From Luteolibacter sp. (GTDB lineage Bacteria > Verrucomicrobiota > Verrucomicrobiia > Verrucomicrobiales > Akkermansiaceae): a DNA stretch of 41,490 nucleotides. The notes beneath the pieces are model-generated. The model was given only the letters and a program-made list of their open reading frames with translations, was not told the origin of the DNA and did no database searches. Below, one piece after another: positions 15,901 through 41,415 of this stretch. The stretch is taken from NCBI GenBank assembly GCA_030696085.1, contig JAUYNL010000012.1, forward strand, positions 1-41,490. Reading direction: 5' to 3'. Position 1 is the first letter of the stretch, and the number at the start of each line of letters is the position of its first letter. The position numbers and the translations under genes were made by a program.

Positions 15901-17283
15901 CCAAAAACCGGCATCTCATGCTCGACTCAGGCTCTTGCCGCGGGTGTCTGGGCACACGTCACTTTTGTTTTCGACCGTGCGAATGGTGTGGTGAAGAGCT
16001 TCCGCAATGGCAAACTGACCAACACGGCTACGATCCCCGCCGGGTTCGGCGACATCGCCACTACCGGCGGCTTGCAAATCGGCACGGGGTTTTCCAACGG
16101 ACAGATGGACGACTTCCAGTTGTGGAATTATGCGTTGAATGACAAAGCCGTGGCGGATGTGATCGGGACCGACCCCAGCCTGGCACTTCGGCTCAAACTC
16201 GATGATGAAGCGGGTGCGACCAAGGCATGGGACTCCTCGTCCTACCGGAGAACCGGCGATCTAACCAACATGACGCCCGCCTCGGCATGGGTAGGCGGCA
16301 GGATCAACGGTGCGCTGGAATTTGACGGTGTGAACGATCATGTGGCCACCCCGGCAATTTCCTCCCCAGAAGCGGTTACCGTGGCGTGCTGGGCCAAAAG
16401 CGCCACCCCCGCGTGGAACGCGTCCGGCTGCCTGGTTTCCCAACGCCCGGCCTTCGTTCTCTCGCCGGAGCAAGGCGGCAAGAATCTTCGTTTTATCATC
16501 TATGACAGCCCGACAACGGAAATCGCCACGCCGACCTGGGTTCCGCCCGCCGATTTCGACATCACCCTATGGCATCACTACGCCGGAGTGTTCGATCCTG
16601 CGGCTGGTCGGCTGGAGCTATATGTCGATGGAGTTCTCGTTTCCTTCCTCTCCACCACCGCAACATTGAATGCCGATACCGGTGCCGTGTTCATTGGCAA
16701 AGATGATAATGCCGCCAACTATTTCAACGGAGCCGTGGACGACGTGCGCATCCATTCCCGCGCATTGAGCTGGTGGGAAATGTTGGAGTTGAGCCTGCAA
16801 ATCAACACCCAACCTTACGCGGAAACTCCGACGATCATTCTCGCCACCGATGTGGATGGAGACAGGCTGCCAGGCGCTTGGGAGCAGTTTTACGGTCTCG
16901 ATCCACAAGTAGCAAACAATCCTGCGGACGACAGCGGCGACCACGATGGCCTGGGTCTCCTGATGGAATACGCACTCAACCAGAATCCGTCCTCAGACAG
17001 CAGCGCCGGACTCCCCATCATCAACACCGAGCTGAATCCCGGAGACGGCAAAACCTATCTGACCTTCACCTACCTGCGCCGCACCGATGCCCCGCAAGTC
17101 ACCTACGCAGTGCAAGTAAGTGATGACCTTTTGTCATGGAGCAGCGCCCCTGCCGAGTCGCTGGAAATCAGCGCCGTTCCCTCTGGCGATGGCGTCACCG
17201 AGATTGTCACCACCCGCATCCTGCCCGCCATTGGCGCATCCAATCCGCGGCGTATGGCGCGATTGTCCGTCAGCCCCCCGTGA
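9988..17283 (+). CDS. Giant secreted multidomain protein: autotransporter-associated beta strands, beta-helix, PA14, CBM-like, two LamG
   Basis: This 2,431-residue exported protein has a signal peptide in its first 42 residues; the ATG at 10030 (MKPAIQRAV...) is an equally good start. Residues about 45-860 are PATR-type autotransporter-associated beta-strand repeats (GAGKLTKTGTGQLLI, then GKVVFSTAKSYTGATAVTSGTL). They are interrupted at about 498-625 by a domain reading DGITLAVGDRILVKDRGNQN and GIYVV, typical of phage tail-fibre-like proteins. A right-handed beta-helix begins at about 861 (GSDTTNNGLSAATPFATIQKA), is split by a PA14 domain at about 959-1110, and continues to about 1630 with EARWPN, GEWFYD and many H/N/D turn motifs. 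A galactose-binding-like CBM (about 1650-1840) and two LamG domains (about 1850-2060 and 2065-2270) follow. The C-terminus (about 2285-2431) has a DVDGDRLPGAWEQFYGLDP motif and YLTFTY...TYAVQVSDDLLSW. It probably binds and possibly cleaves a polysaccharide at the cell surface; catalytic activity is unproven. Confidence 0.85.
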   Translation: MNIKTQNPGNPSVTMKPAIQRAVGLGRILLAASFTASQSFAANDSWIVNAAGNWTAAANWASGTQYPNGAGDIATFSHNITASRIVTLTSAITVGGLLFNDTDAAGQGGTSDKGYGIALGANNLSLDAGTAGYNASDLVLIDVPTSNLVGHGFNASAGGKINFTDNVQINVANNVELSFGSTKFAGAGKLTKTGTGQLLIASDNVAGGYTGNIRVEGGTFQVRSNNNAYGGGVITLTNNSNTRLSANNYSPTAGPVIPNNLILEKTSAANNFQLYLITSPVLTWAGDISNTGPALDVNLTADFENAGLSYTMTKYTGDNSGLSFAPGKGFLGSNNYIGVGNHNALGTGNSMPVSIVSNGTAQVGLLATIPTTITSPITISGNGNVTGAVIGATITGGTVNYTGPITLNAAANNNVRQIFLRSEPGASVVFDSVIGNAASEGNKAPLAKIGGGRTELNGDNTFLGASAVRDGELVLGHANALGSATSAVSLGEATPPLTDVRVATVLSGYAGTLGTWTNDAIHHGTYGVGATPAPAVIDGITLAVGDRILVKDRGNQNGIYVVSSLSPNVWVRAEDLDSSEEISYGQQVRITAGTINGGGVYFQAQRGTGPFPGTITLNSSPLDWHKDTTHPVVSILNNGVAINRDIEVVANGSAGKSILGGVNTSGTSTFSGTVTLARDLAVTADTGGIVDFSGNVTGGFGVTKEGSGKVVFSTAKSYTGATAVTSGTLVINGTLASSGVTVGDGASLQGAGAITNGLAVSGTVSPGDAIGTLTVGSASFTAGGTLEVEIDGPACDQLLSTGALNLSGAALTIKPSGSSVTEPSYVIAQGSPLTGAFANVPGGFTVTYTGSQAILHAASGYFVSPSGSDTTNNGLSAATPFATIQKAANLMVAGDTCFIRGGIYRETVTVPNSGTASSPITFAAYNNEKVIISGTDPITDTWAEESENVWYVDIPYLTREVWTNVTGSSVANIPVGTTPTFTDKLASFETPTNWADNFGTRVSGVFTAPADGDYTFWIASDDNSQLWLSTNSSPANKQLIAAVNSYTISREWTKFPSQKSVAVSLVQGQQYYIEALQKENAGGDNLAVAWARPGQPTTVPSEIIPGSVFSSVPGAFSFTLGDRNQVFQGAGTQASLAMKPEARWPNAGAGHPWQDSTIKPSPDWTYVDSAGYDVNGQNGWLIDAELPSRPAPANYWAGARVHIMLGEGWYTFTPSVNSYDDSTKTLVTDENHGPVDGGGPGAYTMKTGNEYYLTGKKGELDSEGEWFYDNISSRLCFYSTAAPANVEVKSRLYGFKFSGKSFINLTNLDFFACTVDPTAPYPTDCELDGLNMKYLSHHRLRDGAVGLALGSRCVLRNSELAYCSNGLVAMQGSDMRIINNYLHDAAYTPVGVGAIVANVYGANQYAAYRNLISHNTIRKVGHAAITYPGRAAIIQYNDVSDAMKGCTDGGIFYWNQDGSNGIVRYNLVHDSAPAVGHTGAGMRAFYLDNQSSGWIAHHNIIWNVIGHAMHYNARTNFNKIFNNTCWNCSGGAVQSHFWGDGPTGSSFFNNLFNGKADGNQATWSVTDMRHNLHTDPSLVDPANRDFRLQASSPGIDAGTVIPGVTDGYAGSAPDLGALEYGVPDWTDRAGYHAIPPTPDPVHDAPSLSFANQISDGSFESGNLATAWVTAAGSNVGVIRSSSWYDPHLRSGHHGVQFGGGESEISQVVTGLIPNRRYKFHCGTHKTDPSAVVVLGVRSFGFPDREFTVPVTNPWQQNVADPVGVIFEVPFVTGPTDTSATVYVKVTRPAGSSVAPKNNTTGTFPTTAATLINLSNYYNSVLVNPWYPETGVYVDDLAVLLSQENTDPLTYGMPAVSYPFDESGGVTAYDVTPNENSAVLTGATFTPGQHGNALTFTGITQKATATTATIPAAGGSFSVAFWLKLNNIAANEYPKPVNNAGWLKKGWHITSGPDYSLAMYLWTKDNSQGTDNPKTGISCSTQALAAGVWAHVTFVFDRANGVVKSFRNGKLTNTATIPAGFGDIATTGGLQIGTGFSNGQMDDFQLWNYALNDKAVADVIGTDPSLALRLKLDDEAGATKAWDSSSYRRTGDLTNMTPASAWVGGRINGALEFDGVNDHVATPAISSPEAVTVACWAKSATPAWNASGCLVSQRPAFVLSPEQGGKNLRFIIYDSPTTEIATPTWVPPADFDITLWHHYAGVFDPAAGRLELYVDGVLVSFLSTTATLNADTGAVFIGKDDNAANYFNGAVDDVRIHSRALSWWEMLELSLQINTQPYAETPTIILATDVDGDRLPGAWEQFYGLDPQVANNPADDSGDHDGLGLLMEYALNQNPSSDSSAGLPIINTELNPGDGKTYLTFTYLRRTDAPQVTYAVQVSDDLLSWSSAPAESLEISAVPSGDGVTEIVTTRILPAIGASNPRRMARLSVSPP
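11468..11476 (+). repeat. C9 homopolymer inside the giant gene
   Basis: Nine consecutive cytosines lie in codons for ATPPL, immediately before the phage-fibre-like insertion. Slippage by one base would truncate the protein near residue 495. Confidence 0.7.
12569..16160 (+). repeat. Beta-helix/CBM/LamG block, paralogous copy 1 (inverted relative to 36.9-40.0 kb)
   Basis: The encoded modules align in the same order with those of the minus-strand giant gene (about 36900-40000): GSDT..TGL/NGL...PFATIQKAANLM, MKPEARWPN, SSWYDPHLRS, NAGWLKKGWH and FSNGQMDDFQLW all recur. The main difference is a PA14 segment (about 12862-13320) present only in this copy. The blocks are diverged inverted repeats. 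Confidence 0.75.
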
Positions 17284-19768: not shown

Positions 19769-19864
19769 CAGTCAGTCAGAACTCACTCAGGGCCAAGGCT
19801 GCGATTCATAATTGCCGAATTTCGATATATTCCATATCTCTCATGCGTATCATTTCAAAAGCTC

Positions 19865-21208: not shown

Positions 21209-21264
21209 AATCCAGATTCCCTGCGCCCCTGCGACCATTCGCTTCAGTCAGCGGGCTATGAAAT

Positions 21265-22290: not shown

Positions 22291-22403
22291 ACGCATTTCC
22301 GGACGGTTGCCGGGATGTTTTCCCATGATGCCATGTCGAAAGTCATGGAGCCGCCCGCGATCAACATGAAATGAGTTTCTTCCGATTTTCAAACGAACCA
22401 AGC

Positions 22404-24296: not shown

Positions 24297-24308
24297 CTTC
24301 ATTCACCT

Positions 24309-29600: not shown

Positions 29601-30007
29601 TCAAATTACAGCCCGGCAAGAACGAACTGGAATGGGAGACCTTGCCGGTTTCCAGCGAGGACAAAGGTGAAACCGTCACCTTCCACTGGAAACACGGCGC
29701 CCAGATTGGCGAATGGAGTCGCGCCGCAGATCCCCGCCAGACGATGGTGCTCCACTTCAACGGCAAGCCTTTGCTCAAGTTCGGTCTCGACGTGTCCGAT
29801 CTGGAATGGACGGTCAGTGATGGCGGTGCCGCACTTCGTTACCGTGGCGTGGCAATCACGAAGCGCTCCTCCACCGGACTCATGAGCCTCACCGTGCCGC
29901 GTTCCCTGCTCGTCGATGGCAGGCCGAATTCCATCAGATTGGTGGGCGATACCCATACGGAGTTAAGCTTGTGGAATGGGGTTATTGAGACCAATTCCGC
30001 CAAATAG
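26681..30007 (+). CDS. Large secreted glycoside hydrolase family 2 protein (beta-galactosidase-like)
   Basis: This is a 1,108-residue exported enzyme whose ATG lies within the previous stop region (ATGA overlap), indicating translational coupling. The signal peptide ends near FSASA-EIP. The GH2 sugar-binding domain contains LKGKWEFATDPQAAGRDAGW, IEVPGCWEAQGVG and WYRRSASIPADWQGKRIWLKIGGV, then an Ig-like domain (about 230-345). The catalytic barrel includes GVRKFEVRGDRFLLNDKPFFVRGYG. The expected acid/base is Glu455 in SMGNEGSLG, and Glu518 in VAHEYLNLG occupies the nucleophile place, where many members have SEYG. A tail of about 450 residues with beta-sandwich character follows. It belongs to the long GH2 group typical of Verrucomicrobiota/Planctomycetota and should remove beta-linked terminal sugars. 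It converges with the minus-strand block, with a 64-bp gap that shows no good terminator. Confidence 0.92.
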   Translation: MNTSMKRQLTLYILVLIARTAIFSASAEIPENWTQRPASPAVVNPPVRSALQEVISLKGKWEFATDPQAAGRDAGWMRAGVAWPNQRAIEVPGCWEAQGVGEPGTSHVWNIKHDSNSYPLRHIYMGSSWYRRSASIPADWQGKRIWLKIGGVRAQGWFWVNGHPVAHAENYCAVNKYDVTDLLTPGKEAAIVVLVRNDLPSRMGQVSSLHRWGGIYRDIEFEATPDTWIDNCRVEGAFDRKAATVHLAVRTVAKDRPQSLTAEIQLRTSEGKPVGKFTREIAFGEKNSVELAWEIPLADFRPWSPEAPNLYLAEVTLRDSDNALHGWTERFGVRKFEVRGDRFLLNDKPFFVRGYGDDYIYPLTLTSPASREEHRKHLKIARQSGFNYVRHHTHTEIPEYYDAADELGIMVQPELPYYGHELTDSFPFDPKRDLLELITHCRRYVSLATYSMGNEGSLGTPLDNELYQMVKQLDPARLAIHQDGGKGNNKDNSDFRPGPLRPWAPGSFACDAPYVAHEYLNLGLKSDPRLEPRFSGPYAPANDLATYEEFLKRVGLSRSWGDACMDAGHRLQQYYQKEGIENARLDSSCDGYCFWTLVDVLVKQRATRKIYAGQGLYNAFHEPKSGGATPDDFHRYNGPTALLMRANWKTATAGDTANVPLWISHFGDADLKGGALDWTLSADGKTLASGTLGQLNVATGDTRELGIAKITIPELSKPVHAVLEAKIKDSAVHNRWDVWLFPKRAAVDGKGMAASADLYPVLATRYPGIARAGTPEGDVAKVLVTSAGAAADIKAGRRIVLLELDDPNPNVKLEWWWIGDQAGTAIAKHPVFGDFPHSGFLSPLWFEIAKHSSVLQPDDIYRKSEPLMVGEGILGYSFYLSQARVGNARLLRADGLDLVGSKAPESLHLLDQILGYARSEAFVPRSTLDPTGVLSRWEKRQSLLADLSQMNGWSRTVKAEEKLGFPGQGNISTLKLQPGKNELEWETLPVSSEDKGETVTFHWKHGAQIGEWSRAADPRQTMVLHFNGKPLLKFGLDVSDLEWTVSDGGAALRYRGVAITKRSSTGLMSLTVPRSLLVDGRPNSIRLVGDTHTELSLWNGVIETNSAK

Positions 30008-30071: not shown

Positions 30072-30305
30072 TCATTCCGTCTGGGAAACTCGCAGGCGCA
30101 TGAAACGGCTGCCTCCGCCCGAGATCGAGGCGGAGTCACGGATTGTTATGGTGCGCAGGCCGGTATTGACCGTGCTGCCGATTTCCGTGAGTCCGCCGGT
30201 GCTCCAGCTTCCGGCGGATAGATCGCTATTGCCTTGGACGGAGTAGATGATGTTCGCAGGTGGCGGTTCCGGGCGGGTGTAGGTGAAGGTGAGGTAGTTC
30301 TGCCC
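30072..30305 (-). repeat. C-terminal module repeat, copy A
   Basis: About 230 bp at the 3' end of the BNR gene are highly similar at DNA level to 32505-32738 and 40129-40362. Long shared runs include CTCCAGCTTCCGGCGGATAG (exact in A and B, one mismatch in C) and GTGTAGGTGAAGG. Confidence 0.88.
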
Positions 30306-32501
30306 GCCATCGCCGGCGATTTCATGAGAGAGGCGTCCGGCGTGCCCTGGATCATACGGTGAAATCCCGAGCGCGAATCTAACAAGACAAGGTAAATTGT
30401 CCTGTGCTGGAAAGAGCGAAGAGATCAAGCGGCGGTGGAATCCCGTGCCCGGCGCTCCGATGAAAAGCCAATGACCTGAGGAGTCGATGGCGACAGGCCA
30501 CGCGAAGGGCCATGCGAGTCCGTCGTTCATCGGCGTCCATGTGATTCCACCATCGTTGGAACGAACGACGCCGGCGGAGCCTGCCGGTGAAGCGCCGCAG
30601 CAACTGTTGGCGGAGGAGGTGGCGAAGAGCAAATCGCCATTGAGCGCGTGGATGGCGATACTGCGGGCAAAGTCATTGTTCCAGATTCGCTCCCAGATTG
30701 AACCATTGTCACTGCTTCGATAGATGCCTTTGTCCGTTCCATGGCAAACAGCGTAGGTGCGCCCGCTCGCGGTGGGATCACATTTGATATCCCAGACTCC
30801 GGTTATTTCCGGGAGACCGACTTGAGTCCAGGTCCCCGTATTTCCGCCATCCAGCGAGCGCCAAATCCCGGTATCGCCCCCGGCAAAGACGATATCGGCA
30901 TCGAAATGGTCCACGGCCGTGGTGCGCAAGCCCGAAGCAGCAAGAACCTCCAGCCAGGTGTTGCCGTCGTCGGCGCTGCGGTAAACCCGCCCTTCCCCGG
31001 CCACGAAGAGCGTGCGGTTGTTAGCCGGGCTTGTTCGCGCAAGAGACAGGCCGCCATACTCGACGGCCATCGCAGCGGGAGGCAAGCCCTCACTCATTGG
31101 CATCCAGGTGCCAGGCGCTCCGGCTTCGACACTTTTCATCAGATGGCTGTGTGATCCACGCTGACCATGTGCGGCCCAGACGACAGTGGCCCGGAGGGGA
31201 TCCGCCAGCACGGTGGGCGAGTCTCCACCGCGTCCGCCGACCCAGCCGAAGTCTCCCTGGTTGCAGGATTCCCAGGTGGCCCCGCGATCAAGACTGCGCC
31301 AAAGGCCCATGTCCCAGAGTCCGGCGAATACGAGGTTCGGGGCGGCCTCACTCAACGCTACGGCATATACCTCGGTATTATCGGCTCCCGTGCTGGTCCA
31401 GCGCCCGGAACCGAGGGACGTCTCGCGGGTGTGCAGGGCATGAAATTCCGAACCACCATCGAAGCTGCCATAGACGAACTGTGGATTGACCCAGAAGTAT
31501 GCGTCCGAGTCGGACATGTCAGCACCGGCATATCCGCTGGAGCCATTGTCTCCCCAGTGCCAACCCGGTTGCCATCCGGGATTCCAGGAAGCGGATTGGC
31601 TCTTTGGAGTCCAGGTCGCGCCCGCATTATTCGTTTCCAAAACGACGCCCGAATTTCCGATAGCCTGGAGCATGCGGATCACCGTGGAGGATTTCGCGAA
31701 AAGCCGCCCCCATTCGGATGTGGAAAGCGACCAAGTGGAAGCTCCGTCTATCGACTTGTAGGTTCCCTGCCCGGCAACTGCCACGAAGAGCGTGGATGAC
31801 GAAAGGGGATCAATTGTCACATCATGAATTGGACCGGGCGGGCCGATTTTCAACCAATGCACGCCGCCATCACTGCTACGCCACAACTCCTCGGCCCCCA
31901 TGGCGAAGCGGTGTTTTCCGGAAACGAGATAGATGATATTCGCATTCGAGGGATCAGGCACGAGTCGGACGATGCGGAGATTGGCCGGTAGATCGATGCT
32001 GGTTCGGGTCCAATGCAGGCCGTGATCCGTGCTGCGATAGATCTGCCCGTCGAGGCCGTCCCATAGCGGATGGAAGGCCGCGTAAGCACGATCCGGGTTC
32101 GCGGCGGAAACGGCAATGTCTCCCCAGTATCCGCCCGATAACACTTTGGTGAACATCTCCCCATGGTTTTCACTGCGATAAAGACCTTCCTCGGCGCCCA
32201 GATAAATGATGGCCGAATCGGCGGGATCAAATCCCACGGACGAGACATGAGTGTGCTCCAGTCCATGTGCGGATCCGATCACGTTCCAGTTCCGGCCGCG
32301 ATCCAGGCTGCGGTATGCTCCACTGACATCCGAACAAGCAATCAAGGTGCCGGTGGGGCCTGCTTTCACCGCCATGAACCAACCTCCTCCACCCGGATTG
32401 ACACGTTGCCATGTTTCCGCAGCAGAAAGACATCCTGTTGATAGAATCAGGGCGTAGAGAGCTGCGTGAAGCCGGTTTTTGGTAGGAATGCCGAAACTCA
32501 T
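30072..32501 (-). CDS. Secreted BNR-repeat beta-propeller protein (GH74-like) with shared C-terminal module
   Basis: This 809-residue exported protein has a signal peptide ending near CLSAA. It is built of BNR/Asp-box repeats (YRSLDRGRNW, YRSENHGEMF, YRSTDHGLHW, WRSSDGGVHW, YKSIDGASTW, WRSLDRGATW, YRSADDGNTW and more). That many blades suggests two propellers, as in GH74 xyloglucanases. The N-terminal CSDVSGAYRSLD resembles the GH74 motif RTDxGGAYRWD that holds one catalytic aspartate; the second catalytic aspartate was not identified, so activity is uncertain. The last part (about 695-809) is the C-terminal module shared with the two upstream genes (YLTFTYTRPEPP, IIYSVQGNSDLSAGSW, RFMRLRVSQ). 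The start ATG is 3 bp after the upstream stop (TGATCCATG), so it is translationally coupled. Alternatives are a sialidase-fold binding protein or a Vps10-like protein. Confidence 0.82.
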   Translation of the reverse strand: MSFGIPTKNRLHAALYALILSTGCLSAAETWQRVNPGGGGWFMAVKAGPTGTLIACSDVSGAYRSLDRGRNWNVIGSAHGLEHTHVSSVGFDPADSAIIYLGAEEGLYRSENHGEMFTKVLSGGYWGDIAVSAANPDRAYAAFHPLWDGLDGQIYRSTDHGLHWTRTSIDLPANLRIVRLVPDPSNANIIYLVSGKHRFAMGAEELWRSSDGGVHWLKIGPPGPIHDVTIDPLSSSTLFVAVAGQGTYKSIDGASTWSLSTSEWGRLFAKSSTVIRMLQAIGNSGVVLETNNAGATWTPKSQSASWNPGWQPGWHWGDNGSSGYAGADMSDSDAYFWVNPQFVYGSFDGGSEFHALHTRETSLGSGRWTSTGADNTEVYAVALSEAAPNLVFAGLWDMGLWRSLDRGATWESCNQGDFGWVGGRGGDSPTVLADPLRATVVWAAHGQRGSHSHLMKSVEAGAPGTWMPMSEGLPPAAMAVEYGGLSLARTSPANNRTLFVAGEGRVYRSADDGNTWLEVLAASGLRTTAVDHFDADIVFAGGDTGIWRSLDGGNTGTWTQVGLPEITGVWDIKCDPTASGRTYAVCHGTDKGIYRSSDNGSIWERIWNNDFARSIAIHALNGDLLFATSSANSCCGASPAGSAGVVRSNDGGITWTPMNDGLAWPFAWPVAIDSSGHWLFIGAPGTGFHRRLISSLFPAQDNLPCLVRFALGISPYDPGHAGRLSHEIAGDGGQNYLTFTYTRPEPPPANIIYSVQGNSDLSAGSWSTGGLTEIGSTVNTGLRTITIRDSASISGGGSRFMRLRVSQTE

Positions 32502-32504
32502 GGA

Positions 32505-33240
32505 TCAAGGCTGGGTGACTTCAAGCCGCATGAAACGGCTGCCAGCTTCGAAGATGGGAACCACATCGCGGATTGTTATGGTGCGGAGTCCGGCATTCAC
32601 CGTGCTGCCGATTTCCGTGAGGCCGCTGCCGCTCCAGCTTCCGGCGGATAGATCGCTACTGGCCTGGACGGAGTAGGTGATGTCCGTGGGGGCAGGCTCA
32701 GGGCGGATGTAGGTGAAGGTGAGGTAGTCGTTGCCCCCTTCGTTCACGCTTCCGTAGCCTAGGTGTCCGCCGTTGCCATTGGTTTCCGGGCTGAGGCCGA
32801 GCGCATATTTGATCAGGTTGGGCACGCCGTCCTGATTCGGAGTCGCGGTGGCGGCCCCGTTTTCGCTGGCATCCATCGGCAGGCCGTTGGCGAGCAGCCA
32901 TTGCTGATAGCCGGTGGTGCCGCCCGGTGCCGGAGTGGAGAAGTCATACCATTGGTCGCCACCGGCGGTTTCCTCGCTGAGCAGGTAATAGCTGGTGTTG
33001 GCCGTCAGGGTGACGGGGGCGGCGAGGCTGGTGTATTTGAATTGGTTTGGCGTCGCTCCGGCGGTGGCGATGCTGGCGGTGGCGAGCGTGGCTCCGGTGG
33101 TGGCGTTGATGAGTTTCACGGAGTGGGTGCCGGTATTGCCCGGAATGACCCAGCGGCCGAGCTTGTCGATCACCATGGGTTCGCTGCCGGTGCTCAGCGC
33201 CATGCCGAACCAGCCGCTGATGTCATTTCGCACGGCGCTC
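32505..33240 (-). repeat. Extended C-terminal repeat, copy B
   Basis: About 730 bp encode one NDISGW...GGDQWYDF repeat plus the C-terminal module. They align almost without gaps to 40129-40860 (GYQQWLL.NGLPMDAS, NQDGV.NLIKYALGLSP and NGNGGHLGYGSVNEGG shared), forming a direct repeat at 7.6 kb distance. Confidence 0.88.
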
Positions 33241-36200
33241 ATTTCATGGCCGGTAATGAAGGGCGCGGGTTCCGCCACGGTGGCATACCTGAAGGACACG
33301 GGGATGAATTGGAAGCCGCTCAGATAGGTCGTGCCATCGGTGGATGTCACGGTGTTGGAAAACTGTGCGACGGAGGTGGCATGAGTGAGGGTGCTGACGC
33401 TCCGATACCATGAATCGCCGCCGTTGGTTTCCTGGCTCACCAGATAATAGATCGTATTGGCGGCGAGCGTGAGCGGGGCGGCAAGCGGAACATACTTCAA
33501 TCCCGCGGGTTCTCCCGAAGTGGTCACTGTGACGGAACTGCCGGGCACGTCCGCGCTGGTGGAGGCGACGACGAGCTTCATCGGATGCGGGGAGGTGTTG
33601 CCTGGGGCGATCCAGCGTCCGAGTTCGAGCACGGTGACCGGCTTGCTGCCCACGGTGAGCTTCATGCCAACCCATCCGCTGACGTTGTTCAACAAGGAGG
33701 CGCTGAGACTTTGTGGTGGCACAAGATCGAGTGCCGGCGTGCGATACGTGAAGCCTGTGGGCACACTCGCCGCGCCAGGCAGGGATTCGCTTTGCGGGGA
33801 ATTGACGCCGTCCTGCCAGGCGGGGCCGGTCACTGTGGCGTGTGGGCGGGCCTGCATGACGGCCAAGCTCGCCCAAGAGGAGAGACCCGATGCGGAGACC
33901 GTGCGGATGCGGTAGTCATAGTAAACACCGGAGATGCTCGTGCCATCCGCATACCCGGTGCTATTCGCGGCGACGGTGGCGAGCGACGTCCAATCCGCGC
34001 CGACCATTCTGCGCTGGATTTCGAATCCCGTCTCGCCGGAAGCGGTCTCGGTCCATGCGAGTTGCACGGCGGAGCCCGCACCCGCGGTGGCTGTGAGGAA
34101 ACCCGGGCGGGTCGGCAGCGGATTGGCATAATCGATCACGAGGGTGGGCGGGGCGGACACGGTGTGTTCGCGTGATGCCCAGTCCGCCTGCGCACCATCA
34201 AACTCATTGTAGGTGACGAGGGTGACGATTCCATTGGCACCGATGCCGTTGTTGATTGCGGCCGCATTCAGTCCGATGGTGGCCTGGCTGCCGACCGGTG
34301 GAAATGCCGCCAAGGAGGAGTAAAAAACCACACCGAGTTGCTGGGAGGGTGCCAGCACGCCCCGGCCATTGGTCTGGTTGAGCGGCGCGTTGCTCCATGT
34401 CAGATTCGTCTCATCCCAGACATCGGCGGCGTCGGATGCTAGCAGATGGGTTGCCATGTAGTAGAATCCTGTTTCGTTAAATCCCCGTTGTGTCAGGAAT
34501 GTGAGCTTGAGATCGGCTCTGACAATCGCTCCCGGGACACTTGATAGATCAAAGCGCATGTAGTTTTTGGTGATCTCGGCATCGTCGAAGGTGAACGGCT
34601 CGATCCCGGAACTCCAAAGTTTCGTCAAGGTCCCGAATTTCAAGGTTGGGAATCCCATGAACACGGTGCCGTCCGCTCCGCCGGCGTCCTCGGTGCTGCG
34701 TGTGATCTGCATTTCAGGGTGCGGAGTGATCGCTACCAAGGTGTTGGAGGACAGCGCGGCTCCTGAGGAGTTGTAGGAAACGACGCGATATTCATACGCG
34801 GTGTCCGACTGGACGGTATCGGCATAAGCCTGGGTGGGCTGCGTATTGTATGCCACCAGGTCCGCGAGCAGCGTGAATTCGCCGCCCTCGGTGCGGCGCT
34901 CGATGCGGTATCCCTGGCTGAGGGGCGTGGTGTTCCACTGGAGGGTGATATTCGACGAACGCACGAGCGTGCTGACGAGTCCGTCCACCGCCGAAGGTGC
35001 CGGTAGTTCCTCAATAGTCACGTTTTCGAACACGGCGAGTTGATAGTCCGCCAGGAGGGGAGGTGTGCCCGCGGGTGGATCGGAAAGATGGAACACGCCC
35101 CATTGGGCGGTGCTGGCGATGGTGATCGAGAGGCTGCCGAGAGTGGTCCACGACACGCCATCCGGCGAGACCTGGGAGGTGAAAATATCGCCCACCCGGA
35201 TGATCCTGATCCATGAGGGCGTGGTGTGGGATAGCGCGGTGCCGGTGAGCACGCTGCCTGCGGGCGAGCCCGAACGATGAATGAACTTGGCTCCGAACGC
35301 GCCGTCTCCGCTGGTGACGGTGGAAGCCATCTTTGAGAAGCGATCCGCGCTGTTTCTAACCATCACCGCGAAACGCGCTCCGGTTTGCGCGGGAACCGGA
35401 GTGGGAACGCGTGCCGTGAGCACACCGTCACCCGTGCGTGTCTGATGGATGAACTGTCCGTTCTCCTGGGTGGTGGAGGTCTTCAGGCCCGATCCGCCCA
35501 GCGTGGTAGAGCCGAGCACGCCTTCCGCAATGGCCGCCGGAGAGGAGTCGAGGACCGAGCCGTCTCCATTGAAAACGGTTTGAACCCACGGGGATGGAAG
35601 CGTGGCGGCGGGATCTTCGATCAACACTGATTTCGTCTGATAGGAGCCAAGCGTCGCGCCGCCACCGGGGCCCGCCAGATTGATGTGGAACTGCCGCGCC
35701 TGCCGTGGAGTGGCGTCGTTGATGAGCGGCACGGTGATGGACTTGGTTCCGGTTTCCCCGTCCGCCCAGGTGAGGGTGCCGCTGCTCTGCGTGTAGTGGG
35801 TGCCGGCAAGCGCCGAACTGTCCGAGGTGGTGTAGTTCACGCTCACGATTCCGTTCACTCCGCTGCTGCGGTGGACGGGAATCTGTACCGTGCCTGAGGT
35901 CCGGTCCGTTTTCTGATGGGTTCCATCAAAACTGAGAGCGCCCGCCGTGGCGGTGAACGCCGTCTCGGCGGATGTGGCCAGGTCTCCCTCCGCGCCGGTG
36001 ACCACGATCCGATAGAAATAGGATTCGCCGGTGTTGAACGGGCCGGAATCCGTGAAGAGGGTTGTGTCCGGGCCGACGGTGCCAATGGTGACATAGTTTC
36101 CCCCAGTGCTGGTCCTTCGTTCGATCCGGAAGCCTGTTTCATCGCTGGAGTTGTCGGACCAGGTAAGGGTGGCGCTGGTGCCGCTGGTTTGGACGACAGA

Positions 36201-39200
36201 GAGATTGGAAACTCCCGAGTCATAGGGCGATGCGTCGAACTGGAGGGGGATGTCCACCACTTCCTGCCATGTCAGCACGCGCTGATAGAGCCGGAAATCA
36301 TCCACCTGTCCGGTCGTCACATCGGTGGCGAGACTCAGCGCCGCGGCGCTGTCCACCGCGCCGAATCCCGGCGGGATGGCGGTGCTTCCTTCCATGTGGC
36401 CGTCACGGTAGCGGGTGACAAGCGCGTTGGCCCGATCAATGGTGTAAACGATGTGCGTCCAGGCGCCCGGAGTCAGGCCGGTGCTGAAGGGTGAAGTGAG
36501 TTCGGTGAGACTTTGGTCGATGAGACGCAGGCGCAGGTTGGAGGAGTTATCGAAATCCATGCTCCAGCCCTTGGCGGGCGGAGTGCCCGCATGGGTCGAG
36601 GCGATGCGCGGATTGGCCCCCACGGCGCTGAGTTTCAGCCAGTATGCGACACTGAATGATCCCGCGCCGGCGGCCGAGGGAACCTGCGGTGACGCGCTTG
36701 TGGTGGCGGATCCGTTCGCGCCGGAGTAGGTCAGCGCGTTGCCTGAACCCGTCTTGGATGGGGCGAAGTCGGCTGTTGTCAGGGTGGCATTGCGTTGGTT
36801 GCCGCTTGCGTCCCACGCTTTGCTCGCGCCGGGGTTTTCGTCGCACTTGTAGCGCAGGGCGAGTGTGGAATCGGGCGCGGCTGCGGCGGCGATTTCACGG
36901 GGAGCCAGGGCATAATGCCATAACTGGAAATCATCCATCTGGCCGTTGGAAAACCCTGATCCAAGCTTCAGGCCGGTGGGGATATTGATGTCACCAAAGC
37001 CCGCCGGGATGGCGGTGGTGTTGTTCACTACTCCGTCACGATAGCTTCTGAGCACGCCGTTTTCCCGGTCAAAGGTGAAGGCGACATGAGTCCAAGTTCC
37101 TGCTGCCAGAGGTTGGGATAGAAAGGAAGCCATGCCGGTGGGCGGATTGTCGGTTTCCAGGGAATTATCCTTGGACCAGAGATACATGGCCACGCTGAGG
37201 TTCGGGTCGGAAGTGACATGCCAGCCTTTTTTCAACCAGCCGGCATTATCGACAGGCTTGGGAAATTCCCCGGCCCCGACGCTGTTGAGCTTCAGCCAGA
37301 AGGCTACGGAGAATGAGCCGCCGGCCGTCGGCACTTCGATGGAGCCGGTATTGGCGCGCTGGGTCATGCCGGTGAAGGTGAGCGCGTTGTCTTGCCGGCC
37401 CGGGGCGAATGTCGCGCCGGTGAGGGTGGCGTTCTTGTGGTTGGTGCCCGAATCCAAGGCGCTCGTTCCGCCGGTTTCATTGAATGGATAGGAAACCACC
37501 GGCATTCGGTAAGGCAGTGGATCGTTGTTTTCCTGACTGAGCACCACGCCAAGGTCATCCACATAGACGCCGGTGGCCGGATACATCGGATTGACGGTCT
37601 CGGTGCTGGTGTAGGAACTCAGATTGACCAAGGCGGCAGCGACCGTGGGAAACGTGCCGTTGGCATTCTTTGGCGCAACGGACGAATTGGCCGTCCGCGT
37701 GACTCTCACATAGACTGTGGCAGTGGAATCTTCGGGGCCCATGACAAACGGAAGCGCGAACATGCCACCTGGCGCGACAAACGAATTCTGCTGCCAGATG
37801 CCGGTGGTGGGCACGCTGAACTCGACATCCGGCATGCCATAGGAACGCACGCCGATGACCACGGTGGCGGCGGGATCTGTCTTCTGCACGCCGCAGAAAA
37901 GCTTGTATCTTTTGTTTGGCAGCAAGCCGCTCAGCTCCTGGCTGACCTCGGAGGTGCCGCCACCGAATTGGAGGCCGAAAAAACTGGAACGCAGATGCGG
38001 ATCATACCACGAGTTGCTTCGGACCAGGCCGACATTGCTGCCACTGGAAACCGCCCAGTCCGGAGCCAGGACTCCGGTCTCGAAACTGCTGTTTTTGATT
38101 TGATTGGCGTATGTCTGAACCGGCATTGAATAGACCGGATCCGGGGAGGGCGGTGTGGCTTTATGACCAGCGGAGGCGGTCCAGTCCGGCATGCCTGATT
38201 CCAGCGCCCCGATGTCGGGCTTGGTGCCCGCGAAGCCGTCCGTCACGCCCGGGATCACGGTGCCGGAGTTGATGGCCGGTGAGGAGGACTGTAGTTGGAA
38301 ATTTCCGTTGGCGGGATCAACCAGCAAGGGGTTTGTGGTGAGATTGAAACGGACGTCCGTGCGCGCCCAGTTGTCCGAATTGCCGAGGGGCGGGCCGTTG
38401 AACAGATTGTTGTAATATCTGGTTCCCGTTTCGCCGTCACTCCAGAAATCAGACTGGACGGAGCCTCCCGCGCAGTTCCAGAAGGTGTTGTTGAACACCA
38501 TGTCGAAGTTGTTGCGGGCGTTGTTGTGCATGGCACTGCCCGAGATGTTCCAGATGATGTTGTGGTGGGCGATCCAGCCGCTGTTCTGATTGTCGAAATA
38601 GAGACCTTTTACGCCTGCGCCGGTATGACCCACCGCTCCCACCGCATCATGAATCAGGTTGTAGCGGACGATTCCGTTGGCGCCGTCATTCGCCCAATAC
38701 AGCAGTGCGCCATCGGAAGTCAGTCGCATGGCGTCATACACATCATTGAACTGGATGATGGGCTCGCGGCCCGGATAGCCGATGAGCGCCCTGCCGGAGC
38801 GGTGGATGGTGTTGTGGCTGATGAGGCAGCGGTTGGTGGCATTCTCATCTCCGCCAAAGTTGCTTGAGGCGATGCCTTCCGTGAAGGATGGAAAGTAGCT
38901 CATGTCGCGCAGGTCGTTGTTGAACAGGCGGATGTCACTTCCACGCAGGAAAACAAGGGTACCGGAACAAAATGACAGTTCGCTGTTGCGCAGCACGCAG
39001 CGGGTTCCAAGAGTCAGTCCGTAGGTTTGCTGGGCATCGGCGTGGTGGTTCAGATATTGCATGGAGAGCCCGTCAAACGTGCAATCCGTGGTCATGGATG
39101 GTGCCGGGCTGGTCTGGATGGTGCAGGCGAAGAAGCCCAGGTCCAGCAGATGAATGAAGGATCTGCCGGAGAGATTGATGCCGGTGGGGCGCTTCTTGAC

Positions 39201-40067
39201 CTCCACGCCGACTGGCGCTCCCACCGAATGGAAGTAGAGCCGGTTGTTGCTTGCGTCCCAGAACCATTCTCCCGGACTGTCGAGCTCCTCCTTTTTTCCA
39301 GTGAGGAAGAATTCATTGCCGGCTTTGATGGTGTAGGCCCCGCCTGGGGAAACCTCTGTGTCGTTGGTGACGATGGTTTTGGTGGATTCGGTGTAGCCCG
39401 TCACGGACAGATTGCGCATGATCCAGCCATCGCCGGACATGATGCGCAGCTTGGTGCCGTTCCAGTAGCCATTGGACCGGGGCGGAAGCTGGGCGTCGGT
39501 GAATGAGGAGACCGATGAATACGACGCGGAGTTCACATAGGACCAGTCTCCGAGTTCGTTGCGTGTCGGGTGTGCGAGCTGGCTGTTCTGCCAGGGATAG
39601 ACCGTGCCATCGGAGTCGTCCACATTGGGCCACCGGGCTTCGGGCTTCATCGCGCCATTCTGAAACACCTGGTTGCTTGCGCCGAGCGATCCGGTGATGG
39701 GTACATACCAGACATTGGTGCTTTCCTGCGTCCATCCGGTGGTGATCGGGTCCGCGCCGCTGAGGGTGACGGTTTCACCGTTGTAGGCCTGGAAGGTGAT
39801 CGGGGCCTGGGCGGTGCCCGATACCGGCACGTTCACGGATTCCCGGTATGTGCCCGCGCGAATCAGGCAGGTATCGCCCGGGGCCATCAGGTTCGCCGCC
39901 TTTTGAATGGTGGCAAAAGGCGAGGCCAGGGTGAGTCCGGTATTGGCGGTATCACTGCCGGAAGGGGAGACATGGAACGTGGTCGCGTGGAGTGTTCCGG
40001 CGGTCGCCGCTCCGAGGAGCAGGGGCGCAATCCACCTGGCGGGAAAAGAATGGTATTGGTCCGTCAT
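32505..40067 (-). CDS. Giant secreted modular protein: beta-helix, CBM, two LamG, three FN3, Calx-beta, DNRLRE-like and repeated C-terminal domains
   Basis: The 2,520-residue exported protein starts at the ATG at 40067 (MTDQYHSFPARWIAP, cleavage near TLHA); a longer open frame to 40220 lacks signal-like sequence. Module order by residue: beta-helix 30-630 (FHVSPSGSDTANTGL, MKPEARWPN, LDSPGEWFWD); CBM-like 650-835; LamG 854-1057 and 1066-1272; FN3 1283-1375; Calx-beta 1376-1485 (TSDSSALAGTHYTQSSGTL); DUF1349/LamG-like 1488-1685 (WIRIIRVGDIFTSQVSPDG); FN3 1690-1787; DNRLRE/CBM96-like 1787-1990 (NYMRFDLSSVPGAIVRADL); FN3 1990-2075; and two about 95-residue repeats (GWVGMKLTVGSKPVTVLELG; GWFGMALSTGSEPMVIDKLG). 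The C-terminal module ends the protein. The N-terminal 1,270 residues are a paralogue of the plus-strand giant without its PA14 or PATR regions. A surface glycan-binding or glycan-cleaving role is inferred. Confidence 0.86.
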   Translation of the reverse strand: MTDQYHSFPARWIAPLLLGAATAGTLHATTFHVSPSGSDTANTGLTLASPFATIQKAANLMAPGDTCLIRAGTYRESVNVPVSGTAQAPITFQAYNGETVTLSGADPITTGWTQESTNVWYVPITGSLGASNQVFQNGAMKPEARWPNVDDSDGTVYPWQNSQLAHPTRNELGDWSYVNSASYSSVSSFTDAQLPPRSNGYWNGTKLRIMSGDGWIMRNLSVTGYTESTKTIVTNDTEVSPGGAYTIKAGNEFFLTGKKEELDSPGEWFWDASNNRLYFHSVGAPVGVEVKKRPTGINLSGRSFIHLLDLGFFACTIQTSPAPSMTTDCTFDGLSMQYLNHHADAQQTYGLTLGTRCVLRNSELSFCSGTLVFLRGSDIRLFNNDLRDMSYFPSFTEGIASSNFGGDENATNRCLISHNTIHRSGRALIGYPGREPIIQFNDVYDAMRLTSDGALLYWANDGANGIVRYNLIHDAVGAVGHTGAGVKGLYFDNQNSGWIAHHNIIWNISGSAMHNNARNNFDMVFNNTFWNCAGGSVQSDFWSDGETGTRYYNNLFNGPPLGNSDNWARTDVRFNLTTNPLLVDPANGNFQLQSSSPAINSGTVIPGVTDGFAGTKPDIGALESGMPDWTASAGHKATPPSPDPVYSMPVQTYANQIKNSSFETGVLAPDWAVSSGSNVGLVRSNSWYDPHLRSSFFGLQFGGGTSEVSQELSGLLPNKRYKLFCGVQKTDPAATVVIGVRSYGMPDVEFSVPTTGIWQQNSFVAPGGMFALPFVMGPEDSTATVYVRVTRTANSSVAPKNANGTFPTVAAALVNLSSYTSTETVNPMYPATGVYVDDLGVVLSQENNDPLPYRMPVVSYPFNETGGTSALDSGTNHKNATLTGATFAPGRQDNALTFTGMTQRANTGSIEVPTAGGSFSVAFWLKLNSVGAGEFPKPVDNAGWLKKGWHVTSDPNLSVAMYLWSKDNSLETDNPPTGMASFLSQPLAAGTWTHVAFTFDRENGVLRSYRDGVVNNTTAIPAGFGDINIPTGLKLGSGFSNGQMDDFQLWHYALAPREIAAAAAPDSTLALRYKCDENPGASKAWDASGNQRNATLTTADFAPSKTGSGNALTYSGANGSATTSASPQVPSAAGAGSFSVAYWLKLSAVGANPRIASTHAGTPPAKGWSMDFDNSSNLRLRLIDQSLTELTSPFSTGLTPGAWTHIVYTIDRANALVTRYRDGHMEGSTAIPPGFGAVDSAAALSLATDVTTGQVDDFRLYQRVLTWQEVVDIPLQFDASPYDSGVSNLSVVQTSGTSATLTWSDNSSDETGFRIERRTSTGGNYVTIGTVGPDTTLFTDSGPFNTGESYFYRIVVTGAEGDLATSAETAFTATAGALSFDGTHQKTDRTSGTVQIPVHRSSGVNGIVSVNYTTSDSSALAGTHYTQSSGTLTWADGETGTKSITVPLINDATPRQARQFHINLAGPGGGATLGSYQTKSVLIEDPAATLPSPWVQTVFNGDGSVLDSSPAAIAEGVLGSTTLGGSGLKTSTTQENGQFIHQTRTGDGVLTARVPTPVPAQTGARFAVMVRNSADRFSKMASTVTSGDGAFGAKFIHRSGSPAGSVLTGTALSHTTPSWIRIIRVGDIFTSQVSPDGVSWTTLGSLSITIASTAQWGVFHLSDPPAGTPPLLADYQLAVFENVTIEELPAPSAVDGLVSTLVRSSNITLQWNTTPLSQGYRIERRTEGGEFTLLADLVAYNTQPTQAYADTVQSDTAYEYRVVSYNSSGAALSSNTLVAITPHPEMQITRSTEDAGGADGTVFMGFPTLKFGTLTKLWSSGIEPFTFDDAEITKNYMRFDLSSVPGAIVRADLKLTFLTQRGFNETGFYYMATHLLASDAADVWDETNLTWSNAPLNQTNGRGVLAPSQQLGVVFYSSLAAFPPVGSQATIGLNAAAINNGIGANGIVTLVTYNEFDGAQADWASREHTVSAPPTLVIDYANPLPTRPGFLTATAGAGSAVQLAWTETASGETGFEIQRRMVGADWTSLATVAANSTGYADGTSISGVYYDYRIRTVSASGLSSWASLAVMQARPHATVTGPAWQDGVNSPQSESLPGAASVPTGFTYRTPALDLVPPQSLSASLLNNVSGWVGMKLTVGSKPVTVLELGRWIAPGNTSPHPMKLVVASTSADVPGSSVTVTTSGEPAGLKYVPLAAPLTLAANTIYYLVSQETNGGDSWYRSVSTLTHATSVAQFSNTVTSTDGTTYLSGFQFIPVSFRYATVAEPAPFITGHEMSAVRNDISGWFGMALSTGSEPMVIDKLGRWVIPGNTGTHSVKLINATTGATLATASIATAGATPNQFKYTSLAAPVTLTANTSYYLLSEETAGGDQWYDFSTPAPGGTTGYQQWLLANGLPMDASENGAATATPNQDGVPNLIKYALGLSPETNGNGGHLGYGSVNEGGNDYLTFTYIRPEPAPTDITYSVQASSDLSAGSWSGSGLTEIGSTVNAGLRTITIRDVVPIFEAGSRFMRLEVTQP
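36900..40000 (-). repeat. Beta-helix/CBM/LamG block, paralogous copy 2
   Basis: This is the minus-strand partner of 12569-16160, with the same module order and shared motifs (MKPEARWPN, SNSWYDPHLRS, NAGWLKKGWH, FSNGQMDDFQLW) but no PA14 insertion. Confidence 0.75.
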
Positions 40068-40128
40068 TCGATGGAGTGGGCGGAGGCTGTTTTGAAGAAA
40101 AGTCGCGGGTTTTAAAAAAGTGGTCGGG

Positions 40129-40860
40129 CTATGGCTGGGTGACTTCAAGACGCATGAAGCGCCTGTTGGGGGCGAGCATGGGCACGTTGTCCCGGATGGT
40201 GATGGTGCGGAGTCCGGCATTCACCGTGCTACCGCTTTCCGTTAGGCCGCTGGTGCTCCAGCTTCCGGTGGATAGATCGCTGCTGGCTTGGACGGAATAG
40301 GTGATATCGGTGGGTGGCGGTTCGGGGCGGGTGTAGGTGAAGGAGAGGTAGTCGCTGCCTCCTTCATTCACGCTTCCGTAGCCGAGATGTCCGCCGTTGC
40401 CATTGGTGTCCGGGCTGAGGCCGAGCGCGTATTTGATCAAGTTTGCCACACCGTCTTGATTCGGGGTGGCGATGGCGCTGCCGTTTCCGCTGGCATCCAT
40501 CGGCAGGCCGTTGGTGAGAAGCCATTGCTGGTAGCCAGTGGCCGTACCTGCGGCGGGCTGGGAGAAATCATACCATTGGTCGCCTCCGGCGCTTTCCTGG
40601 CTGAGCAGGTAGTAGGTGGAATTTGCCGCCAGAGCAACGGGCGCGGACAGTGGCGCGTATTTGAATTGTTCTGCCGGGGCTCCGGCTGTGGCAATGTTGG
40701 CGGAAGCAAGCGTCGTGCCGGTGAGCGCATCCACAAGTTTGACAGTGTGGCTGCCGGTGTTTCCGGGGAGCACCCAGCGGCCGAGCTGGCTGACCGTCAA
40801 ACCAGTGCTGCCGGTGGTGAGTGACATGCCGAGCCATCCGGTGATGTCGTTGCTTTGCGT
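40129..40860 (-). repeat. Extended C-terminal repeat, copy C
   Basis: This is the direct-repeat partner of 32505-33240. The first about 230 bp also match 30072-30305. High DNA similarity across synonymous positions suggests recent duplication or gene conversion. Confidence 0.88.
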
Positions 40861-41415
40861 ATTCATGCTGTGGCCGGTCACCAGGGGCTGGCCAATTGCA
40901 GTGTATTTGAAATTCAGCGGACCATGGCAGCTTCCCGAGGTTCCACCATTGTCGTATGGCGGATTGGGGCCATTGCTGTTGGCGTTGTTGTTCACGGTTG
41001 CAATTCCGCCGGCGATAGGAACCAATGCGGTGGAGTCATGCCATTGATCTCCCAAATACGTTTCCCTGCTAAGCAGGAAATAGGATGCTCCCGCAGCAAG
41101 GGTGATGGGGGTTGGGAGCGGAACATGCTTGAATCCAACCGGCTCTCCGGCGGTGGTGATGGAAACCGTGCCGCCCGGCAGATCGAGGTTGGTGGCGGCA
41201 TCCACGAGCTTGACGTTGTGAGACTGGGTGTTTCCGGCGACCACCCAGCGGGCGAGTTCGTGGATCACGATGGGTGAGGCTCCAATGGTGAATTTCATGC
41301 CGAGCCAGCCGTCGTGATTGTTGCGGATGGTGCCGAGGTTCGGAGTATTGGCAAACTGGGATGAGGCCGGATAATAGATGAATCCCGGGGGCACATACTG
41401 ATTAGTCCTTGGCAT
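40129..41415 (-). CDS. 428-residue protein made only of the giant protein's C-terminal repeats (probable truncated paralogue)
   Basis: The frame opens at an ATG at 41415 with an in-frame TAG two codons before it. It has no signal peptide (MPRTNQYVPPGFIYYPASSQ) and no recognisable ribosome-binding site. The sequence starts in the middle of the architecture seen in the downstream giant protein: two about 95-residue repeats (GWLGMKFTIGASPIVIHELA... and GWLGMSLTTGSTGLTVSQLG...) and then the shared C-terminal module (IKYALGLSPDTNGNGG, YLSFTYTRPEPPPTDITYSV, RFMRLEVTQP). It is either the 3' remnant of a larger paralogue, broken or frameshifted just upstream near the window end, or a small stand-alone product. 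The 61-bp gap to the giant gene would allow cotranscription. Confidence 0.75.
   Translation of the reverse strand: MPRTNQYVPPGFIYYPASSQFANTPNLGTIRNNHDGWLGMKFTIGASPIVIHELARWVVAGNTQSHNVKLVDAATNLDLPGGTVSITTAGEPVGFKHVPLPTPITLAAGASYFLLSRETYLGDQWHDSTALVPIAGGIATVNNNANSNGPNPPYDNGGTSGSCHGPLNFKYTAIGQPLVTGHSMNTQSNDITGWLGMSLTTGSTGLTVSQLGRWVLPGNTGSHTVKLVDALTGTTLASANIATAGAPAEQFKYAPLSAPVALAANSTYYLLSQESAGGDQWYDFSQPAAGTATGYQQWLLTNGLPMDASGNGSAIATPNQDGVANLIKYALGLSPDTNGNGGHLGYGSVNEGGSDYLSFTYTRPEPPPTDITYSVQASSDLSTGSWSTSGLTESGSTVNAGLRTITIRDNVPMLAPNRRFMRLEVTQP

Follow-up and report, generated by a model that had tools for sequence, protein, structure and literature searches.

A folded C-terminal module, probably a sorting domain, on large exported proteins of Verrucomicrobiota

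RESULTS

The window, that is, the whole stretch of 41,490 nucleotides analyzed here, encodes four proteins (P0001 to P0004) that end in copies of one module. The genes of P0001, P0002, and P0003 are adjacent. Genes of the GH97 and GH2 families are also found in the window. The proteins and their module copies are as follows.

30072..32501, minus strand: P0001, 809 aa, with a signal peptide (by eye), a BNR/sortilin-type propeller, and the terminal module
30075..30446, minus strand: module copy of P0001, degenerate, with a K-type loop
32505..40067, minus strand: P0002, 2520 aa counted from the Met at ORF position 52, with a signal peptide (by eye) and, from N to C terminus, a beta-helix-like region, two LamG domains, fn3, Calx-beta, a CBM96-like domain, a DUF4082-like region, and the terminal module
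32508..32894, minus strand: module copy of P0002, predicted as a helix plus a six-strand sandwich
40129..41415, minus strand: P0003, 428 aa, possibly 5ʹ-truncated, with DUF4082 (two stretches) and the terminal module
40132..40518, minus strand: module copy of P0003, with a K-type loop
9988..17283, plus strand: P0004, 2431 aa, with a signal peptide (by eye), PATR repeats, PA14, two LamG domains, and a diverged terminal module
16870..17280, plus strand: module copy of P0004, diverged

In P0002, the beta-helix-like region was called from weak Pfam matches only, the CBM96-like domain lay just below the cut-off, and the DUF4082-like region was assigned by eye. The motif quoted in the preliminary description indeed ends the three adjacent proteins, with a diverged copy in P0004. 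These three proteins had also been called secreted, which agrees with the signal peptides of P0001 and P0002 but is unsupported for P0003, because no signal peptide is visible there, an in-frame TAG lies two codons upstream of the ATG, and 75 nt of sequence separate the gene from the contig end. Likewise, the domains before the module had been described as completely different; many unrelated domains do precede it, but P0002 and P0003 share a DUF4082-type pre-module region (by eye; assigned by Pfam as DUF4082 in P0003).

A profile of the four tails recovered all four from the genome with E values of 2.5e-70 to 2.8e-57, these being the same sequences from which it was built, while a search with the P0003 tail alone picked up the remaining ones at 2.6e-68, 1.2e-38, and 2.8e-8. 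The tails of P0002 and P0003 share 84% of their amino acids and 85% of their nucleotides. Their DNA identity by codon position is 91%, 92%, and 72%, which looks like purifying selection.

The module comprises about 110 residues, with a calcium-loop (TSP3/EF-hand-like) segment followed by a predicted six-strand Ig/FN3-like sandwich. It begins earlier than had been proposed, at a TSP3-like segment of the form DGxxNLxKYALG. Two structure models of the module (129 and 104 aa) had pLDDT values of 88 and 91, respectively, and were beta up to the C terminus (strands at residues 121–127 of 129 and 96–102 of 104), in line with the earlier claim that a terminal hydrophobic helix is lacking. Foldseek with the first model gave no match at E ≤ 0.001, and the best hits of the VIA structure comparison were generic FN3/Ig domains (Z 7.2 and 6.0). 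A sequence search of solved structures returned 0 matches at E ≤ 1. No clear Pfam or NCBIfam model was found for the sandwich part, and the module otherwise matched the bacterial TSP3 repeat (PF18884, TSP3_bac; 21/92 members at E ≤ 1, best 1.5e-7) and, weakly, the Pfam families DUF3999 (11/92, best 1.2e-4) and F5/8 type C (6/92, best 0.012).

Loop positions 1, 3, 5, 9, and 12 are D, D, D, N, and E in 133 of 162 aligned copies, whereas the loop is degenerate in the three adjacent tails of the window. When position 12 is K or R, the D or N at position 1 is lost in 12 of 13 copies, compared to 2 of 146 with E or D there; these counts ignore kinship among copies, and the search pattern that collected them favors the D-type. 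The Amuc_1099 family (NF042425), presumably part of a secretin cluster, was matched by 36 of the 92 members. The four matches with coordinates cover only residues 2 to 20–30, namely the loop, and outside it the relatives look different (by eye), so a secretin link was dropped.

The preliminary description had proposed checking whether the module is always C-terminal across Verrucomicrobiota; it proved to be almost always terminal and spread over the phylum. It lies within 10 residues of the stop codon in 153 of 162 copies, or 150 of 158 distinct ones with four duplicates taken out, and neither frequent mid-protein positions nor cytoplasmic carriers, which had been named as evidence against a targeting role, appeared among the copies read. 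The nine non-terminal copies include one that is in effect terminal (L110), one with a 33-residue extension (L085), internal copies (L093 and L112), and the first copies of tandem pairs (L150, L159, and L066, a second, terminal copy following in L066). At 29 phylum loci, each being the top match in its genome and drawn from the best-matching genomes rather than at random, the module was terminal in all 29. Control domains in the same sequences were never terminal (LamG 0/6, DUF4082 0/6). In the source genome, 36 of the 37 ORFs read end in the module, four of them being the window proteins and seven being open at the 5ʹ end. Across the phylum, the module was matched in 105 of 194 genomes at E ≤ 1e-3, including weak matches, of which those in G064 and G071 were loop-only or nearly so. 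A tblastn search of plasmids and phages with one module copy gave no match.

The cargo in front of the module is varied. Domains of 34 source-genome carriers include PATR (5), LamG (4), fn3 (4), subtilase (3), PA14 (3), and RCC1 (2), with single carriers of a BspA LRR, a sulfatase, an alpha-amylase, and a sortilin/BNR domain. Signal peptides were scored with a crude home-made rule, leaving aside duplicates, ORFs that run off an end, and ORFs whose part before the module is shorter than 150 residues (at an earlier step, four ORFs had been set aside by the same length limit); they were found in 83 of 107 carriers compared to 113 of 281 controls. Whether the module always stands behind a signal peptide had been posed as a check; enrichment is evident, but 24 of the 107 carriers fail the rule. 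The median size of source-genome carriers was 1142 aa (n = 29), compared to 266 aa (n = 18) for PEP-CTERM proteins (p = 7e-7).

PEP-CTERM (TIGR02595, PF07589; Haft et al. 2006) is a close parallel in arrangement, being terminal, carried by signal-peptide proteins, and present many times per genome. PMC1569441 describes it as extreme C-terminal, behind signal peptides and with many paralogs per genome, including many copies in Verrucomicrobium spinosum; in 87% of proteins, fewer than ten residues follow it. It differs in build, as PEP-CTERM is a short motif, a membrane helix, and a basic tail, whereas the module is a predicted beta-sandwich of about 110 residues with no membrane helix and, in the source genome, sits on larger proteins. 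PEP-CTERM families were absent from the tables of module members (NCBIfam, and Pfam with 25 of 27 families listed), and the module was found in 0 of 21 source-genome PEP-CTERM ORFs selected by regular expression (at least one a spurious frame).

The two tails swap in related proteins. Two pairs of tandem paralogs in the source genome differ in their ends: in C19, a 1038-aa protein with the module and a 993-aa protein with PEP-CTERM are 60% identical over 943 columns, and in C50, the corresponding proteins of 723 and 668 aa are 66% identical over 535. At the Opitutia locus L086, a 312-aa ORF whose tail, judged by eye, is of the PEP-CTERM type shares 47–49% identity over about 250 residues with two module carriers. 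Among 54 PATR ORFs of four other genomes, the module closes 27 and a PEP-CTERM-like tail closes 24; the latter class was defined by a regular expression that gave 25, from which L321 was taken out by eye. The remaining three have an autotransporter-like end (L280), a Gly-rich/hydrophobic/basic tail (L321), and a diverged end (L317). When eight of the PEP-CTERM-like tails were compared with NCBIfam, TIGR02595 reached the cut-off in six (L273, L275, L308, L314, L324, and L300), fell below it in L309, and was not listed for L290. The 11 PATR ORFs of the source genome comprise seven with the module, two with PEP-CTERM, one untagged, and one cut by the contig end. As only three of 16 module-less look-alikes of carriers, among the pairs listed, have a PEP-CTERM-type tail (two are sandwich-like by eye and 11 are neither), PEP-CTERM exchange is one outcome among several. 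The swap shows alternative ends rather than a common destination.

Co-occurrence with a specific secretion or protease gene had also been proposed as a check, and the analysis identified no such gene dedicated to the module. As the weak matches in G064 and G071 were loop-only or nearly so, the exosortase table was recomputed at stricter cut-offs. Exosortase is present in 69 of 70 module genomes (E ≤ 1e-9) and in 74 of the 124 other genomes; Fisher's test gave p = 5e-11, with relatedness and genome size ignored. The association is strong but may be confounded, and in G113, assembled as a single contig, two terminal modules occur with no exosortase match at E ≤ 1e-5. The co-occurrence may reflect a shared lifestyle or a shared pathway. 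A search of the source genome for the T9SS translocon SprA, run with no positive control, gave no match.

DISCUSSION

As the module stands in for a known sorting tag in close gene copies, it probably acts as an address label of a kind not yet described, and we regard the tail as probably a new, folded, phylum-wide C-terminal sorting domain for large exported Verrucomicrobiota proteins. Natural tag exchange, as read from the sequences, is the best evidence for such a role. The suggestion of an undescribed C-terminal targeting signal is partly supported, with terminal position, varied cargo, and PEP-CTERM exchange in close paralogs speaking for it. Searches of titles and abstracts, with supplements and most subscription papers outside their reach, found no description of the module.

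We propose that a carrier would cross the inner membrane by Sec via its N-terminal signal peptide and that its last ~110 residues would take up an Ig/FN3-like sandwich fold, either in the periplasm or outside. The EF-hand-like loop would brace this sandwich, with calcium in most copies and with lysine or arginine in the K-type. A putative envelope component might then recognize the folded end and direct the carrier to, or hold it at, the outer surface. The module would occupy the slot of PEP-CTERM, and rarely that of an autotransporter-like region, in related proteins, and the source genome may divide its cargo so that mostly large proteins receive the module and small ones PEP-CTERM.

The module might instead be a terminal adhesion or carbohydrate-binding domain with extracellular glycans or matrix as its ligands, standing last only incidentally. 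The models do resemble FN3/Ig domains, the calcium-type loop kept in most copies occurs in many extracellular binding domains, polysaccharide enzymes are among the carriers, GH97 and GH2 genes lie in the window, and there are the weak F5/8 type C matches. However, confinement to the extreme C terminus or to a single copy would be unusual for binding modules, and we consider this reading unlikely given the terminal position of nearly all copies, cargo (RCC1, LRR, cadherin-like, and PATR) with no obvious common substrate, and the replacement of PEP-CTERM by the module in close paralogs. That replacement also bears on whether the module merely caps long repetitive exported proteins, aiding folding or protecting against proteases with no address function: similar passengers with PEP-CTERM manage without the module, and subtilases, a sulfatase, and an alpha-amylase also end in it. 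Although the carriers are long and a compact terminal domain could shield beta-solenoid ends, such a cap seems quite improbable. A part in the exosortase pathway, as a folded substrate or as a partner of an exosortase/exopolysaccharide system, would account for the co-occurrence described above, but the module lacks the PEP motif, the membrane helix, and the basic tail of PEP-CTERM, G113 carries it with no exosortase match, and 74 genomes with exosortase have no module at E ≤ 1e-9; we judge this very improbable.

If the tail is a sorting domain, it would give a common annotation at once to many uncharacterized exported proteins. Verrucomicrobiota, some of which live as gut symbionts, play an important part in polysaccharide degradation, and to our knowledge, the route of their very large exported proteins to the surface is largely open. 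A tag recognizable in sequence marks dozens of large exported proteins in a genome, with 36 ORFs in the source genome, and offers a direct way to search for a recognizing machine through phylogenetic profiling, with the natural swap pairs serving reporter tests. More tentatively, an undescribed export or surface-attachment system of Verrucomicrobiota could read this calcium-braced Ig/FN3-like domain in its folded state, following a T9SS-like logic outside Bacteroidota, operating beside exosortase, taking the large cargo, and including a calcium-free lysine subtype.

T9SS C-terminal domains are folded beta-sandwiches that end a diverse range of large exported proteins, and the module is likewise terminal, predicted to be folded, and found on cargo of that kind. 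The Por secretion tail models of NCBIfam, which we take to be TIGR04183 and TIGR04131, were not listed for sets of 26 and 92 members at E ≤ 1, and the T9SS domain was absent among the VIA rows listed for both models. One module member weakly matched PorE (E 0.013), which is not such a domain. TSP3_bac covers only part of the module, the first third as judged by the consensus; TSP3 is a repeat, and the module adds the sandwich after it. Type V autotransporters with PATR passengers (PF12951/TIGR02601) have passenger repeats in common with module carriers. They end in an outer-membrane beta-barrel, whereas the module (104–129 aa) is a predicted six-strand sandwich, and L280 was the one autotransporter-like ORF among the 54 with PATR.

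Window proteins and gene layout

The preliminary description proposed that four proteins of the window share one C-terminal module, and this was confirmed for each of them:

9988-17283, plus strand: P0004 (PATR/PA14/LamG protein, 2431 aa), module at the C-terminal end
30072-32501, minus strand: P0001 (BNR propeller protein, 809 aa), module at the C-terminal end
32505-40067, minus strand: P0002 (2520 aa), module at the C-terminal end
40129-41415, minus strand: P0003 (DUF4082 protein, 428 aa), module at the C-terminal end

According to the ORF coordinates, P0001, P0002 and P0003 lie head to tail on a single strand, with spacings of 3 nt between P0002 and P0001 and, assuming that P0002 starts at Met 52, of 61 nt between P0003 and P0002. 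The domains upstream of the module had been called completely different, which fails for P0002 and P0003: judged by eye, these have a common region, corresponding to DUF4082 (Pfam, in P0003), and are therefore partly duplicates. P0003 had also been described as secreted, but no signal peptide is visible and a stop codon lies two codons 5ʹ of its ATG. The contig ends 75 nt upstream, and P0003 may be a 5ʹ-truncated copy or an assembly-end artefact. The window also holds a plus-strand gene run (17354-30004) with DUF7133/cytochrome c, GFO/IDH/MocA, 3-keto-disaccharide hydrolase, GH97, beta-helix and GH2 domains; the genome-wide module search gave no match in any of these genes.

Terminal position and distribution of the module

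The expectation that matches would always be C-terminal was borne out with few exceptions: 153 of 162 scored copies (150 of 158 without four duplicates) ended within 10 residues of the stop codon. Of the remaining nine, L110 can be regarded as terminal, L085 is extended by 33 residues, the L066 copy precedes a second, terminal copy, L026 is a tandem pair, L016 and L018 are the same tandem ORF shown twice, and L050 is a weak match (0.028) whose ORF contains another match. Only in L093 and L112 does the module lie truly inside the protein and precede other sequence; in L093 (900 aa), this sequence comprises about 310 partly repeated residues. Two control domains of the same proteins, both small controls, were never terminal (LamG, 0/6; DUF4082, 0/6).

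The genome of the window, G000 (3.77 Mb, 110 contigs), contains 40 module matches at E ≤ 1. In the fetched regions, the module was terminal in 36 of 37 ORFs with a match (7 of the 36 open at the 5ʹ end), the sole exception being a weak internal match (E 2e-4). Two ORFs (L150 and L159) have an extra internal tandem copy besides the terminal module. Two contigs end within module copies (C82:1-295, L006; C83:8078-8372, L005) that are identical at 286 of 294 nt; module repeats probably break the assembly of G000.

In a sample of 194 Verrucomicrobiota genomes, with scoring limited to 23 candidates in each, 105 had a module match at E ≤ 1e-3, a cut-off that admits loop-only matches, and 70 at E ≤ 1e-9. 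A genome-contig scan used the D-type pattern (acidic calcium-type loop). Of its best 80 loci, which do not prove a restriction to Verrucomicrobiota, 77 carry Verrucomicrobiota names; the titles of the remaining three read 'PVC group', 'Proteobacteria' and 'uncultured bacterium'.

Cargo, export signals and carrier size

A home-made signal-peptide rule selected 83 of 107 carriers, that is, proteins ending in the module, compared to 113 of 281 module-less long ORFs from the same loci; an earlier rule selected 63 of 85 versus 137 of 492, both rules being crude and the ORF starts uncertain. With the last 100 residues removed, 34 G000 carriers matched 43 Pfam families at E ≤ 1e-5, and the 25 families listed include PATR (autotransporter-passenger repeat), LamG, subtilase, RCC1, BspA LRR, sulfatase and alpha-amylase. 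G000 module ORFs, excluding those open at the 5ʹ end, had a median of 1142 aa (n = 29), compared to 266 aa (n = 18) for carriers of PEP-CTERM, the known exosortase-linked tag, scoring over the family cut-off (p = 7e-7). The module was found in none of 21 regex-selected PEP-CTERM ORFs of G000.

Exchange with PEP-CTERM

The strongest evidence for a sorting role is the exchange of tags. On contig C19, two adjacent paralogs (60% identity over 943 columns) with signal peptides of the same kind carry the module on one and a PEP-CTERM tail on the other (PF07589, 17.8 bits, below the family cut-off of 20.7). Adjacent paralogs on C50 (66% identity over 535 columns) are split in the same way, with a PEP-CTERM tail scoring at the cut-off. 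In an Opitutia genome (L086), an ORF whose tail is of PEP-CTERM type, judged by eye, shares 47-49% identity with two module carriers across about 250 columns. Among the pairs listed in an all-against-all comparison, 16 module-less ORFs resemble carriers; their tails are PEP-CTERM in three (C19, C50 and L086), sandwich-like by eye in two (L134 and L114) and neither in 11, which include partial or broken frames.

In four other genomes, every PATR ORF among the matches listed was traced to its C-terminal end. Of 54 ends, 27 were modules (three by the sandwich alone), 24 were PEP-CTERM-like, and one each was an autotransporter-like region, a Gly-rich/hydrophobic/basic tail and a diverged module-like tail. 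Within this set, the PATR ORFs of G169 had six PEP-CTERM-like ends and no module. The 11 PATR ORFs of G000 comprised seven with the module, two with PEP-CTERM, one untagged and one cut by a contig end. The alternation on paralogs and PATR ends thus indicates that the module occupies the slot of known sorting devices. It is probably an undescribed, predicted C-terminal sorting domain that belongs to the known class of C-terminal sorting tags, although it is folded and has no membrane helix. The searched copies of Pfam and NCBIfam contained no model of it, and no description was found in the literature searched by title and abstract.

Two of the PATR ORFs counted above end in neither tag. The untagged one in G000 (C64; L229, L326; 3165 aa), similar to the PATR carriers, ends directly after LamG without a recognisable tag, and no remnant was visible in the 283 nt read downstream. 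The other (L321 in G088, 3308 aa) ends in a Gly-rich stretch, a hydrophobic segment and a basic tail reminiscent of other tripartite CTERM tags; its last 200 residues had no NCBIfam match.

Relation to known machinery

Of the 70 genomes with a module at the strict cut-off, 69 had an exosortase match, as did 74 of the 124 others, counts that take no account of relatedness or genome size. The single-contig genome G113 has two modules, one ending directly at the stop codon and the other one residue short of it, and no exosortase match at E ≤ 1e-5; therefore, exosortase is probably not needed by the module. SprA had no match in G000, in a search that had no positive control.

Architecture, fold and loop subtypes

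The module consists of two parts: a TSP3/EF-hand-like loop plus short helix, for which the consensus is ADPDGDGxxNLLEYALG, and then a beta-sandwich ending in RRFLRLxV. AlphaFold2 models of a window copy and a D-type copy (pLDDT 87.6 and 91.1) had a helix and six strands of at least 3 residues, with one extra short helix in the window copy. Among solved structures, the models resembled only generic FN3/Ig domains (Z 7.2, 3.1 Å over 85; Z 6.0, 2.5 Å over 72), which shows, for these predicted models, a common fold and says nothing on function. Pfam DUF3999, weakly matched by 11 of 92 module copies (best E 1.2e-4), is possibly a distant relative of the sandwich.

The EF-loop ligands are kept in most copies. 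When loop position 12 was K/R, the first acidic ligand was lost in 12 of 13 copies, compared to 2 of 146 with E/D. The tails of P0001, P0002 and P0003 belong to this K-type minority, which also occurs in the same-family genomes G082, G024 and G113; we infer that the basic side chain replaces the ion.

Three PATR ORFs (L293, L295 and L298) and an S8-protease-like ORF (L134) end in a sandwich of the RFYR type that lacks the TSP3 loop; this sandwich would be either a looser relative or a second tag family.
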